DNA of 24,177 nucleotides from a bacterium. GTDB taxonomy: Bacteria; JAHJDO01. The translations under genes were made by a program, and so were the position numbers. Shown in pieces: positions 2,851 to 17,729 of the stretch. Numbering within the stretch: the stretch's first letter is position 1; each line of letters starts with the position of its first letter. The notes beneath the pieces are model-generated. The model worked only from the letters and a program-made list of their open reading frames with translations. It was not told the DNA's origin and searched no databases. The stretch covers positions 1 through 24,177 of the forward strand of contig JAUWOV010000017.1 of the NCBI GenBank assembly GCA_030611945.1, given 5' to 3'.

Positions 2851-5800
2851 ATGTACAATCATTACTATAACCAGTTAAACGATAAACAAAAAGCAGTTGT
2901 TGACAATATTGAAGAACACGTTGTTGTACTAGCCGGACCAGGCACTGGGAAAACTCAGGTGCTTTCTGTCCGAACAGCAAATATACTAAAAAGAAACAAC
3001 GTTTCACCATCAAATATCCTTATCCTGAGCTTTACCAATGCTGCTAGCGGAACTATCAGGGAAAGGATTGTTGAAATTATTGGCACAGACGGTTACTTCG
3101 TAGAGGTTGGAACGTATCATAGTCTCGCAAATTCAATCATTACTGAATCAGAGGAAGTATCCGAGGCATTTGGAGAAAAAATAGAACTGCATGATACAGA
3201 GAGAATCAAACTCATAAGATACATTCTGGACAATTTGGATAATATCTCAGAAATCCGACCCTTTAGAGCGCCTTATCATTATGAAAAAGAGATTGTTAAG
3301 AATATAAATATCCTGAAAAGGGAAGGTGTCACACCTTCGGATTTTCTTCAACATCTAACAAATATCTCGTCTGACGGAGAGATTATTCAGGAAAAACATA
3401 TTCCAAAACTTCACCAGTTCGGGAAGGTTTACAGAATGTATGAAGAGCTCAAGGATTCCGGGGAAAAACATATTCTCGATGAGCGAGGAAGATATGATTT
3501 TGACGATATGATAATCATGGCAACTTACATTCTGAAGCATGACGAAAATCTGTGTAAAAAATACAGGGAGAAATTCAGCTATATTATGGTGGATGAGTTT
3601 CAGGATACAAACAAAGCTCAACTCAAGCTGCTTCTGAGTCTTATTGATCCTAAGAAAACTAATCTATGTGTAGTAGGAGATGATGACCAGTCAATATATA
3701 GATTTCAGGGCGCGTCTATTACAAACTTCAGAACAATAAAGAACAGATTCAGGAATATCACACAAATGATTCTTACGGAAAATTATCGCTCAACTCCGGA
3801 AATACTCAATACATCAAAAAAACTCATAGAACAAATCCCCTGTCATAAGAGAATATCTCGAAAATCTTTAGTCCCGCACCATGGACTGAAGTCGGTGGTT
3901 TTCTCCAACGGGGTAAAATCCCTAAAATTTGGTTCCATCAGAGAAGAGATATTATTTATTGTAGAAAAAATTAAGAAACTAGTTAAAGAAAAACCCGACG
4001 ATGATCCGTACAGCAGTATAACTATACTCCTTAGAACAAGAAAAGACATATTGCCTATTATTGATGCGTTCCTGCAAACAGGAATTCCATATGTAACAGA
4101 CGGCAAAGAGGATATAAGCTCCCATCTGCGTGTCAGGCAGCTGCTTTCGGCTCTAAGCCTTGCAGTAAATTCGCATAATCCTGAGCATGCAGATAGGTAT
4201 ATATTTGAACTACTTGCTTCAGATTATTTTGAAATAGATATAAGTGACATGACTGCATTACTGAGTTATGTAAACTTGCGAAAGAGGAAAAATATTAATG
4301 AGAATAAACCCATTACTCTTCTTGAAGAAATAACATCCGGATTTTCAGGAAACACTCCGCCTATTACTCTCAAAAACCCTCTAAAATTACATAAATTCTC
4401 ATGGACAATTCAGAGGCTTATCAAGGATTCAGACACGCGTCCGGTTCATCAGCTAATACTTCAGTACATAAAGGATTCAGGAATGCTGGAATTTATATTA
4501 GCAAAATATGAAACAGACCAGATATTGAAGATAAGAGATTTAAGAGCAGTCTCTTCTTTTATTGAATATGTGAAGGAACAGGCAACTGCTAATCCTTTGA
4601 TGACGATTACTGATTTAGTGGAAAATATCAATTTGCAGCAATCTTACGGCATAGGAATTCGAGGTATACTTGCAAGTTCTCATCAGAAAGGGGTCAGGGT
4701 CTTAACAGCTCACAGCGCAAAGGGAACTGAATTCCATACTGTCTTTATCCCTTTTTGCATTCACGACAAAAAATGGCCTAAAAAACTAATTACGGATCTA
4801 ATACCTATTCCGCAAACGATTCTTCAAATACCTGAAAGTGCATGTTCAAAGGAAGCGATGAAGAAACCACATGTATTCGATGAAATAAGACTATTCTATG
4901 TAGCGTGCACAAGAGCTAAAGCAAACCTATTTTTCACTGCCGCTCCGGTACAAAAAGACATTCCAAGCATGTTTCTTAAAAACATGGATATTGAGCCTAA
5001 AACATGCCTTATACCTGAAGAACATGTTCTTAGATTTTCCGTAGATACAGTTAAAGAACGTCCGCCCTTTTTGCAGACAGGGGAAATTCTCAAGGACTAT
5101 GTAAAATCCATAAGCTTGAATCCGACAAACGTGAATGACTACATAAGATGCAGAAGATATTTCCTCTATAATAATTTGTTAATGCTTCCAAGCGAGTTTA
5201 CAGAAGGACAGGTATTTGGGCTCTGTGTTCACAAGGCATTAAGTAAAGTCTATCAGGAATACAAAAAGAGGCGAAGCCTCTCGAGACGAAGTCTCCCTGA
5301 ATTTGAGTTTTTCGAGAATGTTTTTAATATATGTCTAAAAAATATATCTCTGGGGAAAAGGATAGAGCAGGGCTGCCTTGGAAAGATTGACGAGCTCAGA
5401 AATTGGTATCAGAAGAAGGCTGAAAGCCCTGCATGCGTTTTATTCATAGAGAAAAGACTTGAAATATTTATAAATGAGAATATCCCTTTTTCAGGGAGGT
5501 TTGACAGAATAGATACTGTTGGAAGCAATAGAAACGTTTGTGTTATTGATTACAAAACAGGAGATGCGTATACACATATAAAAAGTATTATAGACAACAA
5601 TGACCCTCTTAACAAAGACTGCGACCCATATCTTCACCAGCTTATAGCGTATAAATTAATAATGGAAAATCAGCCCGAGCCTTATAAAGTGGTATCATGC
5701 AAACTTGAGTTTTTGGAGCCTTCAAAAAGAACGGTTAAAAAATACAATATAGAAGAAGGCGAATATAAAACACTTGAGCTCACAATAACTGATAAAATGA

Positions 5801-5931
5801 CAGAAGACATGAAGAAGCTCATTATTGATGTGTGGGAAAGAATTCACAATCTTGAATTTGAGAAATTAGCAGAATACGATAAAATAAAATGTGAGAACTG
5901 TAATTTTAGAAATGTGTGTTGGGAGGCGTAG
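2851..5931 (+). CDS. UvrD/PcrA-type SF1 helicase fused to Fe-S PD-(D/E)XK nuclease
   Basis: Predicted ATP-dependent 3'-5' DNA translocase with a C-terminal RecB/AddB-like nuclease, likely in DNA repair or foreign-DNA processing. SF1A motifs appear in order: Walker A AGPGTGKT (28-35), VDEFQDT (247-253), GDDDQSIYRFQGA (276-288), LTENYRST, VRVLTAHSAKGTEF, and YVACTRAKA with Arg688. The nuclease part carries GRFDRID with Asp885, VIDYKTG with Asp900 and Lys902, and YLHQLIAYK after it. Cys767 plus Cys1014, Cys1017 and Cys1023 form the pattern of a 4Fe-4S clasp as in AddB. At 1026 residues both enzymatic halves look intact. No addA/recB/recC partner is adjacent, so it may act alone. Residues about 806-815 (RRSLSRRSLP) come from a palindromic DNA insert. 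The ATG has no ribosome site. Confidence 0.9.
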   Translation: MYNHYYNQLNDKQKAVVDNIEEHVVVLAGPGTGKTQVLSVRTANILKRNNVSPSNILILSFTNAASGTIRERIVEIIGTDGYFVEVGTYHSLANSIITESEEVSEAFGEKIELHDTERIKLIRYILDNLDNISEIRPFRAPYHYEKEIVKNINILKREGVTPSDFLQHLTNISSDGEIIQEKHIPKLHQFGKVYRMYEELKDSGEKHILDERGRYDFDDMIIMATYILKHDENLCKKYREKFSYIMVDEFQDTNKAQLKLLLSLIDPKKTNLCVVGDDDQSIYRFQGASITNFRTIKNRFRNITQMILTENYRSTPEILNTSKKLIEQIPCHKRISRKSLVPHHGLKSVVFSNGVKSLKFGSIREEILFIVEKIKKLVKEKPDDDPYSSITILLRTRKDILPIIDAFLQTGIPYVTDGKEDISSHLRVRQLLSALSLAVNSHNPEHADRYIFELLASDYFEIDISDMTALLSYVNLRKRKNINENKPITLLEEITSGFSGNTPPITLKNPLKLHKFSWTIQRLIKDSDTRPVHQLILQYIKDSGMLEFILAKYETDQILKIRDLRAVSSFIEYVKEQATANPLMTITDLVENINLQQSYGIGIRGILASSHQKGVRVLTAHSAKGTEFHTVFIPFCIHDKKWPKKLITDLIPIPQTILQIPESACSKEAMKKPHVFDEIRLFYVACTRAKANLFFTAAPVQKDIPSMFLKNMDIEPKTCLIPEEHVLRFSVDTVKERPPFLQTGEILKDYVKSISLNPTNVNDYIRCRRYFLYNNLLMLPSEFTEGQVFGLCVHKALSKVYQEYKKRRSLSRRSLPEFEFFENVFNICLKNISLGKRIEQGCLGKIDELRNWYQKKAESPACVLFIEKRLEIFINENIPFSGRFDRIDTVGSNRNVCVIDYKTGDAYTHIKSIIDNNDPLNKDCDPYLHQLIAYKLIMENQPEPYKVVSCKLEFLEPSKRTVKKYNIEEGEYKTLELTITDKMTEDMKKLIIDVWERIHNLEFEKLAEYDKIKCENCNFRNVCWEA
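5268..5295 (+). repeat. Paired palindromic hairpins inside helicase ORF
   Basis: Two perfect 5-bp stems with GAA loops lie in tandem: GAGGC-GAA-GCCTC at 5268-5280 and GAGAC-GAA-GTCTC at 5283-5295. They encode the repetitive peptide RRSLSRRSLP between the Fe-S cysteine motif region and the nuclease core. The unit resembles small palindromic elements that insert in frame into genes. No other copy was seen in this window. Confidence 0.6.
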
Positions 5932-5935
5932 TACA

Positions 5936-5999
5936 GATAATTTTCTATTGACAACAGAAAAATATTGGATAATTTTCTATTGACAACAGAAAAATATTG
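5936..5999 (+). repeat. Perfect 32-bp tandem repeat with palindromes, over DUF4143 promoter
   Basis: Copy 1 is 5936-5967 and copy 2 is 5968-5999, identical at all 32 positions. Each contains a near-perfect dyad: TTTTCTATTG, one central A, then CAACAGAAAA (one mismatch in ten pairs). The TTGACA -35 box sits in the centre of each dyad. A 32-bp period is about three helical turns, so two proteins could bind the same face of the DNA. It looks like a double operator, though a recent replication-slippage duplication is also possible. Confidence 0.8.
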
Positions 6000-6008
6000 A
6001 ATTATACT
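5980..6008 (+). promoter_or_regulatory. Near-consensus promoter of DUF4143 ATPase, leaderless
   Basis: Perfect TTGACA at 5980-5985, 17-base spacer, TATACT at 6003-6008. The expected start of transcription, about seven bases on, coincides with the ATG at 6015. No ribosome site exists. The -35 is in repeat copy 2; copy 1 has a second TTGACA at 5948-5953 without a well-spaced -10. Confidence 0.75.
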
Positions 6009-6014
6009 GCTTTT

Positions 6015-7232
6015 ATGATAACCAGAAAAATAAGTCCTGCCATTATAAAGAATTTGGATAAACCGGATGTCTTGCTTATTATTGGAGCAAGACAGGTTGG
6101 CAAAACGACGGTTTTAAAAGAACTCGTTTCTTATCTTAAGAAAAGAAATCGCGAGACATACTTTTTCACTCTGGAAGATCCTGATTTATTAACAGACCTT
6201 AATCAACACCCGGAGAACATTTTTAGTTATGTCCCTAAAACCAGTAAGTATTTCTTCCTCTTACTGGATGAAGTCCAATACCTAAATAATCCGACTAATT
6301 TTCTTAAATATATCTACGATTTATACAGTGAGAAGATAAAATTGATTGTTTCGGGATCATCTGCATTTTATATAGATTATAAATTTAAGGATTCGTTAGC
6401 GGGAAGAAAGAAGATAATAGAGCTTTATCCTTTCTGCTTTTCGGAGTTTTTACTAGCCAAAAAAGAGATAAAACTTTCAGAAAAGATTGCGCAGGAAAAC
6501 TATTTTGACAGAGTAAAAAAAGTAGATTTATTGAAACATGAAAGAAGAAAACTGAGTTATTTGTGGCAGGAATATAGTATCTTTGGTGGATATCCAAGAG
6601 TTGTTCTTGAAGATAATTTGGAGGAAAAGAAATATATTTTAAAAGAGATATATCAAAGTTTCCTGCGAAAAGATATTCGTGAGGCAGGAATAAAGAATGA
6701 ACTAAAGTTTTACATGTTATTAAAAATTCTTGCTTCACAAGTTGGTCAACTGTTAAATATTCAGGAACTTGCTAATACCACCGATGTTTCAAATGACACA
6801 GTTTCAAAATATATATATACCTTGCAAAAATCATTCATTATCAAACAGTGTGTGCCATTTTATCGCAACATCAGAAAAGAATTGACTAAAATGCCAAAGA
6901 TATTCTTTTTGGATAACGGATATCGTAATTCCTTGCTCAACTTGTTTGTCCCTATTGGCCAAAGAATTGACAATGGAGCAGTGTTAGAGAATATCTTCTT
7001 TACAGAACTGGTTAAATTATCAATTGACGATATCAAGTTTTGGAGAACGCAAAGTAAGTCAGAAATAGATTTTATCGTAAATGAAAGGTATGCATTTGAA
7101 TTAAAAATGTCTAAAAAGGCGTATAATATAGCAAAATACAAAAAGTTTACCGAGCGTTATCCAGAGATAAGTTTGAGACTTGTTACACATCAGGATGAAA
7201 AAAGTTTAGATTTGCTGGATTTTGCCAGTTAG
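6015..7232 (+). CDS. AAA-family ATPase with DUF4143 domain
   Basis: Member of the widespread AAA_14/DUF4143 family, whose cellular role is not firmly known; many are horizontally spread. From the ATG at 6015 it has 405 residues. Walker A is GARQVGKT (24-31), Walker B LLLDEVQ with Asp85-Glu86, then SGSS (113-116), an arginine in LAGRKK (about 131), and the family PFCFSEFL segment. A winged-helix-like stretch (LNIQELANTTDVSNDTVSKYIYTL) follows. The C-terminal part has Glu350-x-Asp352 and Glu362-x-Lys364, the layout of a PD-(D/E)XK-like fold. A TTG at 5997 would add six residues but lies upstream of the -10 box, so it is not the start. It sits in a cassette behind the helicase gene. Confidence 0.88.
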   Translation: MITRKISPAIIKNLDKPDVLLIIGARQVGKTTVLKELVSYLKKRNRETYFFTLEDPDLLTDLNQHPENIFSYVPKTSKYFFLLLDEVQYLNNPTNFLKYIYDLYSEKIKLIVSGSSAFYIDYKFKDSLAGRKKIIELYPFCFSEFLLAKKEIKLSEKIAQENYFDRVKKVDLLKHERRKLSYLWQEYSIFGGYPRVVLEDNLEEKKYILKEIYQSFLRKDIREAGIKNELKFYMLLKILASQVGQLLNIQELANTTDVSNDTVSKYIYTLQKSFIIKQCVPFYRNIRKELTKMPKIFFLDNGYRNSLLNLFVPIGQRIDNGAVLENIFFTELVKLSIDDIKFWRTQSKSEIDFIVNERYAFELKMSKKAYNIAKYKKFTERYPEISLRLVTHQDEKSLDLLDFAS

Positions 7233-7245
7233 TTTTGTATTCATT

Positions 7246-7288
7246 ATGCAAGAACTGTAATTTTGGAAGCGTGTGCCGGGAAGTGTAG
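7246..7288 (+). pseudogene. Displaced remnant of helicase 3' end (Fe-S cysteine tail)
   Basis: This 43-base stretch aligns without gaps to the last 43 bases of the helicase gene (5889-5931), stop codon included. By eye, 34 of 43 bases match and all nine differences are transitions. In frame it reads CKNCNFGSVCREV then stop, against CENCNFRNVCWEA then stop in the helicase, so all three cysteines of the Fe-S tail remain. There is no start codon and homology ends at once upstream, so it is not a gene. It marks either an insertion at the helicase 3' end or the leftover of a duplicated helicase gene. Confidence 0.7.
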
Positions 7289-7356
7289 TTTTCTTGTTCC
7301 TAACGTGATTTAAGCCCTTAGCTTGCCAAATTGGCTTGAGCGATTTGTTGTACGGG
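7289..7356. other. Short intergenic spacer with two small palindromes
   Basis: Holds GCCAA-A-TTGGC at 7325-7335 and GGGTT-ATTC-AACCC at 7354-7367, the latter running into the stop of the zinc-ribbon gene. Neither has a T-run, so I do not call a terminator. It separates the convergent DUF4143 and zinc-ribbon genes. Confidence 0.4.
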
Positions 7357-7755
7357 TTATTCAACCCAATTCCATCTCTCTATCGACTCTAAATTACCAC
7401 CACATTGACAATATATGCTCTTTCCTTTAGCACATGGCTTAAAACACTTATCACAAATAACAGTATTCGATCTCTCGAGCTTTATTGCTCCTAACATAAG
7501 CTGCAATAAATATAAACAAATAAAAGTGAGTACAAACCAAGGCACAAAATACACCTTCAGCCATGATAGTACTTCATTAATAGAAGCTCCCGAATGCCAT
7601 CCAGTATATCTTGTTCCATGTCCGATCACTGCAAACAAAATACCAACACTCCACAAGCCAACCGCTACAAGAAGTGGACGTTTATAATCATATCGCTGTC
7701 GCTTCTTTTGCTTATTATATTGTAAATACTCTTCATCTGTTTTTTTAATCCACAT
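7357..7755 (-). CDS. Small two-TM membrane protein with C-terminal zinc ribbon, unknown function
   Basis: I do not recognise this 132-residue protein. A charged N-terminus (1-27) is followed by a hydrophobic segment at about 28-45, a short polar stretch, a second one at about 67-91, and a cysteine-rich tail: Cys101-x2-Cys104, Cys108, then Cys116-x-Cys118, the layout of a zinc ribbon. It probably sits in the cytoplasmic membrane with the ribbon in the cytosol, by the loop's short length and basic N-terminus. The ATG at 7755 is chosen because GGAG lies six bases before it; a TTG four codons upstream would overlap that site. It is downstream of ahcY on the same strand with a 79-base gap. No partner suggests a role. 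Confidence 0.6.
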   Translation of the reverse strand: MWIKKTDEEYLQYNKQKKRQRYDYKRPLLVAVGLWSVGILFAVIGHGTRYTGWHSGASINEVLSWLKVYFVPWFVLTFICLYLLQLMLGAIKLERSNTVICDKCFKPCAKGKSIYCQCGGNLESIERWNWVE

Positions 7756-7834
7756 GGATGTCTCCAATAATATGATTCATACAACAATCAACAGACGTAT
7801 TACGTAATTTTATGGCTAAGCGACTTATATCTCG

Positions 7835-9091
7835 TTATGTTCCAATCTCCCATGAACTGAGGTATTTTTTTTGTTCTGGAGTTAGTTTGTCTATTTTAAT
7901 ACCCATGGAATTGAGCTTGAGTTTGGAGATTCTTTTATCTATATCTTGAGGGACATTATATACCTTCTTCTCTAGTTTTTTATGATTTTTTGCAATGTAC
8001 TCAGCTGATAAGGATTGATTGGCAAAACTCATATCCATTACCATTGCAGGATGTCCCTCAGCAGACGCAAGATTGATTAGACGACCCTCCCCAAGAAGAC
8101 ATATTCTCCTGCCGTTCTGCATTGTATATTCATCAACAAATTCTCTTACTCTTCTTTTGCTTTTACTCATTTTTTTAAGAGCCGGCACATCAATCTCTAC
8201 GTCAAAATGTCCTGAATTTGCAATGATAGCGCCATCTTTCATATTCTTAAAATGCTTAGTTGCTAAAACATGTATATCTCCCGTTAAGGTTACAAAGGCA
8301 TCGCCAATATAAGAAGCCTTCTCCATAGACATAACAGAGAAGCCATCCATGACTGCCTCCAATGCGCGCAAAGGGTCAACTTCTGTTATAATAACATTTG
8401 CTCCCATACCTTTGGCCCTGCTTGCAAAACCCCGTCCGCACCAGCCATATCCGGACACCACAACAGTGGAACCGGCAAACAACATGTTAGTTGCTCTGAT
8501 AATGCCGTCAATCGTGCTTTGCCCGGTACCATATCTGTTGTCAAAGAAATGTTTTGTGTCAGCGTCATTAACAGCTATGATCGGAAACGCAAGTTTTTTC
8601 TGTCTTTCCAGGCTCCTCAATCTAATAACGCCTGTTGTCGTCTCCTCTGTTCCGCCAAGAATATTCTTTATAAGCTCTCTTTTATTATTGTGAATTGTAG
8701 AAACAAGATCTGCGCCGTCATCCATAGTAATATTAGGTTTGTTTTCTAATGTACTGCTGATATGGCTATAATAAGTTTTGTTATTCTCTCCACATATAGC
8801 AAAAACGGATATCCCGTAATCTTTTACCAGAGAGGCAGCAACATCATCCTGAGTGCTCAGAGGATTTGAAGCGCATAATCTTACTTCTGCGCCGCCTGCT
8901 TTTAGAGCTATTGCTAAATTAGCTGTCTCTGTTGTAACATGCAGACATGCGCCTAATCTAATCCCCTTTAGAGGTTTTTCTTTCTTAAAGCGTGCTTGAA
9001 TTGATCTGAGAACCGGCATATTTTTTTCTGCCCATTCTATGCGCAGTTTACCCTCTTTAGCCAGCTTGATGTTTCTTATATCATATTTCAA
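7835..9091 (-). CDS. ahcY: Adenosylhomocysteinase
   Basis: Cytosolic NAD-dependent enzyme that splits S-adenosylhomocysteine to adenosine and homocysteine, clearing the product of SAM-dependent methylation. Its 418 residues match the shorter bacterial/archaeal form. Visible are His51 in [17 protein letters not shown] (125-129), [18 protein letters not shown] (about 175-192, with Lys180 and Asp184), and the NAD loop GYGWCGRG (214-221). The C-terminus is WEIGT rather than the KxxxYRY tail of the longer type, as in thermophile-like short homologues. The start is TTG, with GGGGGAT upstream; the nearby ATG is out of frame. It follows metK by 37 bases, so SAM synthesis and SAH removal are probably co-expressed. 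Confidence 0.95.
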
Positions 9092-15688: not shown

Positions 15689-15717
15689 TTGACAAAAAAG
15701 GTTGCTGGTATTATTGA
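15689..15717 (+). promoter_or_regulatory. Promoter of HD phosphohydrolase gene
   Basis: Perfect TTGACA at 15689-15694 with 17-base spacing to a poor TATTGA at 15712-15717; TATATA at 15718-15723, five bases before the ATG, is another -10 candidate but too far from this -35. Either choice leaves few or no leader bases. It diverges from the tRNA promoter. Confidence 0.5.
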
Positions 15718-15728
15718 TATATAACGAG

Positions 15729-17156
15729 ATGAAAATAAAAGAGCTAGGTAAAAATGATTCTTTTTATTCAGGCATAGATCTAATAAGCGACCCTATACAT
15801 AATTACATCAAATTTACTTCTCCGACTGAGAAAAACAAAACAGAGATCACAGAACGCGATATTATTGATAATCCGTGGATACAGCGGCTTAGACGCATAC
15901 ACCAGCTTCAAAGCGCTTTCTGGGTTTTTCCTTCAGCTGAACATAGCAGATTTCAGCATTCTATTGGAACAATGCATGTAGCGGGCAGATTTGCTCTGCA
16001 TCTGTATCCGTCAATAAAAAAAGCCTGTCCGGACTGCCCGTCAAGCAATTACATAGAAGAGTTAATGAGACTTGCAGGCTTGCTTCATGATATAGGACAT
16101 GGCCCATTCGGGCATTTCTTTGATGATAATTATCTCAAACAATTTAATGCTTCCCATGAGACAATATCAAAGGCAATAATAGAAACAAAGCTGGCTCTAT
16201 TACTAAAAAAAATTAGAAGAAGCCCGTCCGGATATTTTGCTAAAGGAGAGGTCATCAGCCCTTCGCACATATCCTTTCTTGTTGAAAAGCCTAAAAAAGA
16301 CAGAACTCGTTCATCTTTTCCAAAGTGGCTTAAATTCTTACTGCCTCTTTTTAGCGGGATATATACTGTAGATAATCTTGACTATGTATTAAGAGATTCA
16401 TATATAACAGGTTTCTCCAGGTCGCCTATTGATCTTGAACGCATCCTGCATTATACGTTTGTATCTTCTAAAGGACTAACTTTTCATAGTGCTGGAAAAA
16501 CAGCTTTGCTCAATTTTGTTAATGCCAGATTAAGTCTTTATTCCGCTGTTTATTATCACAGAGCTACAAGGTCAATAGATTTATGTTTAAAGGATATATT
16601 CGGGGAAACAATGAAAGTAGTCTTTGAAAATAGAAATCCAATAAAACATCTTAATGATTATTTATATCTTACAGAATGGTCATTGTTTGCGAGTGTAGAC
16701 AAATGGAAATATAGTTCCAATCAAAGTATTCAACGGCTTGGCAGAGAATGGGAAAAGATTCTTATGAGGCAAAGGCAGTGGAAGATGGTTTATGAGAAGT
16801 TTGAAAGATTAAAGAATACAGAAAATTATGCAGATATCTTCTATTCAGATGCTAAAGGATTAGAGGCAAAAGTAAAGGAAAATATTTCTCCTCATAAGAT
16901 TGATTTTCGCATAGATATCCCTGCGCTTGATCCAAGACCGGATAATCCAATGGCTATGGGAGACAAACAGATCTTCTTATATGAACCTTCGTCAGGAAAG
17001 GTTCAGAAAGAAACGTTAAAGGAGTTGCTTGAATTTGTGCCTTCCAGAGTCTATCTTTGCAGGATATACGCTCATAACGACAAACATAAAAAGGAACTGG
17101 TTAGAGCGTTTGAAAAAATATTTAGAATAAGAGAAGCTCTGTCTACAAATGTTTAG
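15729..17156 (+). CDS. HD-domain phosphohydrolase (dGTPase/SAMHD1-like, COG1078 type)
   Basis: Predicted metal-dependent nucleotide phosphohydrolase, related to dNTP triphosphohydrolases; the true substrate is unknown. From the ATG at 15729 it has 475 residues. The metal-site motifs are SRFQHSIGTMHVAG (His77), LLHDIGHGPFGHFF with His120-Asp121 and His124, and VDNLDYVLRDSYITGF, which marks this family. The C-terminal third is less conserved and charged. A TTG nine codons upstream would extend the protein, but it would overlap the promoter, so ATG is preferred; there is no real ribosome site. It has no clear functional partner; the hicBA pair follows after 122 bases. Confidence 0.87.
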   Translation: MKIKELGKNDSFYSGIDLISDPIHNYIKFTSPTEKNKTEITERDIIDNPWIQRLRRIHQLQSAFWVFPSAEHSRFQHSIGTMHVAGRFALHLYPSIKKACPDCPSSNYIEELMRLAGLLHDIGHGPFGHFFDDNYLKQFNASHETISKAIIETKLALLLKKIRRSPSGYFAKGEVISPSHISFLVEKPKKDRTRSSFPKWLKFLLPLFSGIYTVDNLDYVLRDSYITGFSRSPIDLERILHYTFVSSKGLTFHSAGKTALLNFVNARLSLYSAVYYHRATRSIDLCLKDIFGETMKVVFENRNPIKHLNDYLYLTEWSLFASVDKWKYSSNQSIQRLGREWEKILMRQRQWKMVYEKFERLKNTENYADIFYSDAKGLEAKVKENISPHKIDFRIDIPALDPRPDNPMAMGDKQIFLYEPSSGKVQKETLKELLEFVPSRVYLCRIYAHNDKHKKELVRAFEKIFRIREALSTNV

Positions 17157-17278: not shown

Positions 17279-17509
17279 ATGGAAAAGCATTATCAGTTAC
17301 CTATCTTGACTGAAAAAGATGAAGACGGCTTTTATGTTGTAGAGTGTCCTGTATTTAGCGGCTGTTATACTCAGGGCAAAACTATGGACGAGGCTTTAGA
17401 AAACATCCGAGAAGTGATTGACTTGTGTCTTGAAGAAAAAGAAAACAAAGAGACGCTTGAAAACTTTCACCCACAAGAGTTAATCTTCTCCACTCTATCC
17501 TATGCCTAA
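17279..17509 (+). CDS. hicB: HicB-like antitoxin, no DNA-binding domain
   Basis: Predicted antitoxin that binds and inactivates HicA. The 76 residues hold only the partial RNase H-like fold: DEDGFYVVECPVFSGCYTQG, then a helix TMDEALENIREVIDLCLEEK. The usual C-terminal HTH or ribbon-helix-helix domain that represses the operon is not present; only a short tail remains. It has a clear AGAGAGG ribosome site. Its stop overlaps the hicA start by eight bases, so translation is coupled, with antitoxin made first. Confidence 0.85.
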   Translation: MEKHYQLPILTEKDEDGFYVVECPVFSGCYTQGKTMDEALENIREVIDLCLEEKENKETLENFHPQELIFSTLSYA

Positions 17510-17729
17510 ACTACCAATAGTATCCGCAAAAGAAGCTATAAGAACATTTGAGAGATTGGGTTATCAAATTGTTCGCCAAAAAGGTAGTCATATTAGAATG
17601 CATCATAAAACAGACAAGAGCAAACGCCACTTGACTATTCCTAATCATAAAACGATAGGTAAAGGTTTATTGCGTAAACTATTAAGAGATGCGGAATTAA
17701 CTGTTGAAGATTTTTCAAAATTACTCTAA
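17502..17729 (+). CDS. hicA: HicA-family mRNA interferase toxin
   Basis: Small dsRNA-binding-fold ribonuclease predicted to cleave mRNA during stress. The 75 residues match the family: [29 protein letters not shown] contains the catalytic His in GSH, followed by a basic [24 protein letters not shown]. It begins inside the end of hicB. Its stop codon overlaps the stop of the convergent fusA gene by four bases, so there is no intergenic space between toxin and EF-G. Confidence 0.88.

Follow-up and report, generated by a model that had tools for sequence, protein, structure and literature searches.

A single-gene candidate defence cassette lies between the stop codon of a helicase gene and a degenerate second copy of that gene's last 43 bases, and was probably acquired horizontally by one-sided (homology-facilitated illegitimate) recombination, which would have left the former helicase end downstream of the new gene. 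The window, that is, the whole stretch of DNA analysed (24,177 nucleotides), corresponds to contig C108 in a draft genome of 1.66 Mb. The features of the region are as follows.

2851-5931, forward strand: UvrD-family helicase gene with a C-terminal PD-(D/E)XK nuclease domain and a Cys tail, the anchor gene adjoining the insertion
5889-5931, forward strand: copy 1, the functional end of the helicase gene including its stop codon (from repeat search and script)
5936-5999, forward strand: perfect tandem repeat of two 32-bp units that include the -35 box, a possible operator
5980-6008, forward strand: sigma-70-type promoter, TTGACA-17-TATACT, with 11/12 consensus matches
6015-7232, forward strand: AAA_14-DUF4143 gene (405 aa) with an ATPase, a winged-helix-like region and a PD-(D/E)XK nuclease-like domain
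7246-7288, forward strand: copy 2, a putatively displaced and decayed helicase end, either the former end or a target duplicate (from repeat search and script)
7357-7767, reverse strand: small membrane-protein ORF with Cys motifs, a separate insertion, private to the window genome here
7835-9091, reverse strand: adenosylhomocysteinase gene (ahcY; Pfam AdoHcyase), the convergent right border of an insertion hot spot

The top repeat pair of the region, found by repeat search, is 5889-5932 and 7246-7289 (44 nt, 80%, spacing 1357). When the last 43 bases of the helicase gene (5889-5931) were compared by script with 7246-7288, 34/43 positions were identical and the nine differences were transitions without exception (9/9, with 0 transversions), while the flanks directly outside copies 1 and 2 were without homology. 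The degenerate 43-base copy with nine transitions and abrupt borders, described in an earlier sequence-only reading, was thereby confirmed. When 7233-7834 was shuffled 500 times with dinucleotides preserved, ungapped matches rose to at most 24/43. Elsewhere in the window, both strands included, matches stay below 26/43. The helicase itself matches the Pfam families UvrD-helicase (1e-60), UvrD_C and PDDEXK_1 (2e-21). Read in the helicase frame, copy 2 gives C-K-N-C-N-F-G-S-V-C-R-E-V-stop and copy 1 gives C-E-N-C-N-F-R-N-V-C-W-E-A-stop. The conserved E, R and W of the helicase tail are missing from copy 2, which has S and V as in the tail of the same-genus genome G003 (CENCNFRSVCWEV) at positions where copy 1 has N and A. 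In this respect copy 2 resembles a former helicase end, which agrees with the displaced end proposed before.

The two copies enclose 5932-7245 (1314 bp), and 5932-7288 comprises the enclosed bases plus copy 2. The DUF4143 gene lies inside this interval and is the only ORF between the copies, so that its placement between them and the absence of a visible integrase both held, as did the tandem repeat and the strong promoter assigned to the cassette. A search of the genome that tolerated up to 3 mismatches gave no further occurrence of the 32-bp repeat. The end of the -10 box is 6 nt from the ATG (6015), and a leaderless transcript is therefore possible. At two homologous DUF4143 units, L105 and L113, the -10 box likewise ends about 6 bases before the start codon. 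Promoter spacing of this kind suggests that compact DUF4143 units may produce leaderless transcripts. About 10 other DUF4143 genes are present in the window genome, the closest of them with 38% protein identity, but the cassette unit occurs a single time.

The product of the gene matches DUF4143 (2e-34) and AAA_14 (3e-29) in Pfam and, over its full length, the PADLOC profile PDC-S01 (2.1e-95, residues 1-394 of 405); five other flanked DUF4143 homologues likewise match PDC-S01. Motifs of the Walker A/B and PD-(D/E)XK types are intact in the window protein (GARQVGKT, DE at 85-86, E350/D352 and E362-x-K364), and G29, K30, D85, E86, E350, D352, E362 and K364 are conserved at 0.97-1.0 among 119 homologues. 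The window gene is a member of the candidate defence family PDC-S01, and its role against phage is a candidate one. In the available text of PMC12988326, PDC-S01 is placed among the commonest candidate defence genes, as an ATPase joined to a domain of the PD-(D/E)XK superfamily, with a candidate role, and most PDCs are said still to await validation as defence systems. The insertion mode of PDC-S01 genes was not found in the available text of PMC12988326 and PMC13356809.

The helicase-ahcY junction was compared within a genus sample of five draft genomes only. Helicase orthologues, 84-88% identical, are present in four same-genus genomes, and the junction is covered in three of them. The G002 site is empty, with the helicase stop followed by the ahcY end within 10 bp; the same gap holds a nucleotidyltransferase-like gene that is intact in G004 (C24, L051 ~3978-4576) and decayed in G003 (C38, L053 ~6353-6604). 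Neither DUF4143 nor a second helicase end occurs at the junction in G002, G003 or G004 (3/3), which places the insertion in the window's lineage, and the empty site in G002 together with the other cargo in G003 and G004 defines a small insertion hot spot between convergent genes. The right homology border falls at 7834-7836 in the three relatives. The ORF at 7357-7767 is not at the site in relatives and gave no Pfam, PADLOC or plasmid match. Between copy 2 and this ORF, 7296-7350 looks attC-like by eye (CCTAACG...TTTAAGCC...GGCTTGA...GTTGTAC). An integron cassette was rejected, since 7296-7350 folds no better than shuffles and has no plasmid attC match; no integron integrase in the genus reaches the family cut-off.

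An insertion at the helicase 3' end, as first read from the window, is borne out by the empty G002 site with its intact anchor gene. None of the relatives lacks DUF4143 while keeping both copies, and no further helicase homology lies beside copy 2 that would make it part of a second helicase gene. Among the relatives, neither a recipient type, with a helicase ending directly in the 7246 version, nor a donor type, with helicase and DUF4143 but without copy 2, was found.

In the one-sided recombination favoured here, homology would guide the pairing of incoming DNA at just one of its ends, within the helicase, and the other end would be attached through illegitimate recombination, some 43 bp ahead of the stop codon of the resident helicase. 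A complete helicase end plus the cassette would thus be gained, while the recipient's own former end would be pushed behind the cassette and decay. The one-sided character of homology-facilitated illegitimate recombination has been described (PMC3240628), and PMC5361080 proposes it as the origin of displaced 3' ends in the T6SS arrays of Vibrio. If the copies are the alleles of two lineages, copy 2 should not be nearer to copy 1 than it is to G003 or G004; it has 9 differences to copy 1, 8 to G003 and 8 to G004. The differences of copy 2 are not enriched at third codon positions (4/9), and the window helicase, compared with relatives, has no clear identity break near its 3' end, so that a decayed simple duplicate fits the window equally well.

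Flanking duplications recur at other DUF4143 genes. Upstream and downstream flanks were compared for 105 DUF4143 genes from many prokaryote families, and a flank score of at least 18 was reached by 19/105 of them versus 14/3000 mismatched pairs. Under a stricter hugging rule the counts were 10/108 DUF4143 genes versus 0/185 neighbouring genes (Fisher 3.5e-5). The apparent flank repeats at eight loci (L139, L179, L132, L170, L186, L199, L125 and L163) were set aside, being dispersed, of low complexity or paralogous. Inspection left about seven convincing cases, of which L097, L098, L105 and L113 belong to the same genus as the window. The end of the upstream gene is duplicated, with the upstream copy intact, at L113 (39 nt), L173, L095 and in the window; the start of the downstream gene is duplicated, with the downstream copy intact, at L105 (177 nt) and L098 (~110 nt with a deletion); and at L097 the duplicated piece is a promoter, that of a GAPDH-like gene (~37 nt). 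The duplications are thus 20 to 177 bp long or absent, lie on either side of the DUF4143 gene and are mutually unrelated in sequence. Because sequence, side and length all vary, a dedicated 3'-end-restoring unit is unsupported: of the element first envisaged, one that enters at a gene's 3' end and restores it, the insertion at the helicase end stands, whereas the dedicated unit does not, as starts and a promoter are duplicated elsewhere. The search for the cassette at other sites had a similarly divided outcome, in that DUF4143 units do occur elsewhere in the genus, but with unrelated flanks, and the helicase-end unit is found once in its genome.

With joined flanks as queries, continuous empty sites were recovered in G002 for all three of L113, L097 and L105, and in G004 for L097 as well. 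At L095, which has a perfect 21-bp repeat, the two flanking genes are not neighbours in relatives, and therefore no clean empty site is demonstrable. Identity of L113 to G002 rises from ~80% on the anchor side to 98% beyond, a jump that coincides exactly with the insertion point, and the relic on the right retains the G002-type gene end. At L105 most differences between relic and intact copy (7/9) fall on third codon positions, as do 19/34 over the five coding cases (binomial P 0.006). In G003:C138, L268 has the order DUF4143, relic gene tail, CAAX-protease-like gene (by eye), second relic tail and next gene. This order suggests a second round of displacement at one site.

The main rival holds that a staggered or processed double-strand break produced a target duplication of variable length, so that copy 2 would be a drifted duplicate and no donor flank would be involved. 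It accounts well for the relic-like loss of conserved residues in the window's copy 2, for the perfect-copy cores of 20-21 bp in L097 and L095, and for the end-joining-like gain of an L097-type unit in G002, which involved a 5-bp loss and no duplication. However, the copies at L105 and L113 resemble two functional alleles, and there is an identity break at the L113 insertion. The 21% divergence between copies 1 and 2 in the window also exceeds the 11-16% backbone divergence between species, though the insertion is lineage-specific. No Ku gene was detected in the genus, which speaks against this origin too; classical end joining was rejected on the same ground. A duplicated target is thus a possible but rather unlikely origin of copy 2, and one-sided recombination is preferred.

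DUF4143 units move within the genus as promoter, gene and a few bases. The L097 unit (1331 bp, comprising promoter, gene and ~18 bp) is also present in G002, 95.1% identical where the backbone is 87-89%, and the positions that the unit occupies in G000 and in G002 differ, lying 0.85 kb from each other, with clean empty sites. The G002 copy adjoins the stop codon of a gene judged lpxL-like from its end; its insertion cost 5 bp without any duplication, and neither G004 nor G003 has an insert there. Genome G123 contains two DUF4143 copies that are 86% identical over 1.4 kb with sharp borders, and another pair, 95% identical with different flanks, is found in G001 and G002. At L108 (G002:C101) the -35 region in front of the DUF4143 gene is spanned by an inverted repeat, perfect over 15 bp (CCATGAAATTTCGAC/GTCGAAATTTCATGG), and the left border of L107, which is 95% identical to L108, cuts through this palindrome.

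These movements raise the question of whether the PDC-S01/DUF4143 protein mobilises itself, its ATPase-nuclease cutting at gene borders and pasting promoter plus gene with irregular joints and without transposase or integrase. The L097-type unit at its two sites, the sharply bordered pair in G123 and the strict conservation of the nuclease motif are what such a protein would lead one to expect. Yet the units have no conserved ends, no fixed duplication length and, by eye, no terminal inverted repeats, and the nearby sites in G000 and G002 equally fit transfer helped by neighbouring homology. A DDE-type transposon was rejected likewise, with duplications of 20-177 bp or none and no terminal inverted repeats by eye. 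A further objection comes from HicBA cassettes, which lack such a protein and have equivalent scars. In the same genome set, 14/50 HicBA cassettes had a flank score of at least 18, in windows wider than those used for DUF4143. The duplicated pieces include the start of glyA at L292 (G133:C8), the end of a VOC gene at L298 (G043:C95), a 195-bp gene end plus downstream sequence at L282 and a 48-bp gene end at L254 (G007:C15), with gene names at the inspected HicBA loci read by eye from translations; some other HicBA flank repeats are dispersed or paralogous. The hugging signature is therefore not specific to DUF4143 and marks imported small cassettes in general. A scar around DUF4143 does not demonstrate self-movement by the DUF4143 protein, and its occurrence around related and unrelated cassettes alike makes an imprecise gene-import scar likelier than a new mobile element. 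DUF4143-specific mobility as the sole explanation of the repeats was rejected as unproven, the HicBA loci being alike, and self-mobilisation as such appears improbable. The window itself has a HicB-HicA pair at 17279-17729, between an ORF at 15702-17156 (HD-domain-like by eye) and an elongation factor G-like ORF.

A site-specific element with an att site in the helicase end, restoring the gene on entry, would explain the exact stop-codon position and the displaced former end. It is nevertheless very unlikely, since there is no integrase in or beside the unit, homologous units elsewhere in the genus lie at gene starts and promoters of unrelated sequence, and both the 32-bp repeat and the unit are single-copy in the genome; a fixed att-like target was ruled out, as the duplications at different sites are unrelated to one another. 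Chance similarity or a decayed helicase paralogue, for which the shortness of the copy (just 43 bp) might speak, can practically be dismissed given 34/43 matches against at most 24/43 in shuffles, the same frame and stop, and the lack of helicase homology beside copy 2.

The question addressed by these observations is by what route small defence genes that lack an integrase become established in chromosomes. Displaced gene ends provide a readable scar, which marks an import, reveals the anchored side and points to the empty site. DUF4143 and HicBA cassettes, which are unrelated to each other, both carry the scar, and it is seen in several lineages, so that a large-scale survey of one-sided import is possible. 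The scar also offers direct tests of self-movement by the DUF4143 protein, which, if true, would explain the spread of PDC-S01/DUF4143 genes, which count among the commonest candidate defence genes.

Several known systems invite comparison. Free-standing homing endonuclease genes are single-gene mobile units with a nuclease, found at gene borders with allele-level flank differences. The likeness lies in the single-gene nuclease unit; the window nuclease differs in architecture and is joined to an AAA ATPase, and its mobility is a candidate property. Site-specific integrative elements at gene 3' ends displace the former gene end behind the insert. Unlike them, the window cassette has no integrase, and the insertions share no common att sequence. 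With PDC-S01, as presented in the available text of PMC12988326 and PMC13356809, the window gene shares its form as a single gene with an AAA ATPase and a PD-(D/E)XK-superfamily domain, a patchy distribution and transfer between lineages. Closely comparable are the T6SS effector-immunity arrays of Vibrio cholerae and the orphan 3' regions of Rhs genes, in which a new gene likewise appears beside a conserved anchor and the old 3' end of the anchor is pushed downstream without an integrase; repeated rounds can build arrays there, to be compared with G003:C138, where a second gene lies between two tail copies (PMC5361080). Unlike in the T6SS arrays, the cargo here is a single defence-type gene and not an effector-immunity pair, the anchor helicase stands outside the cargo system, and mirror-image cases occur at gene starts (L105 and L098).
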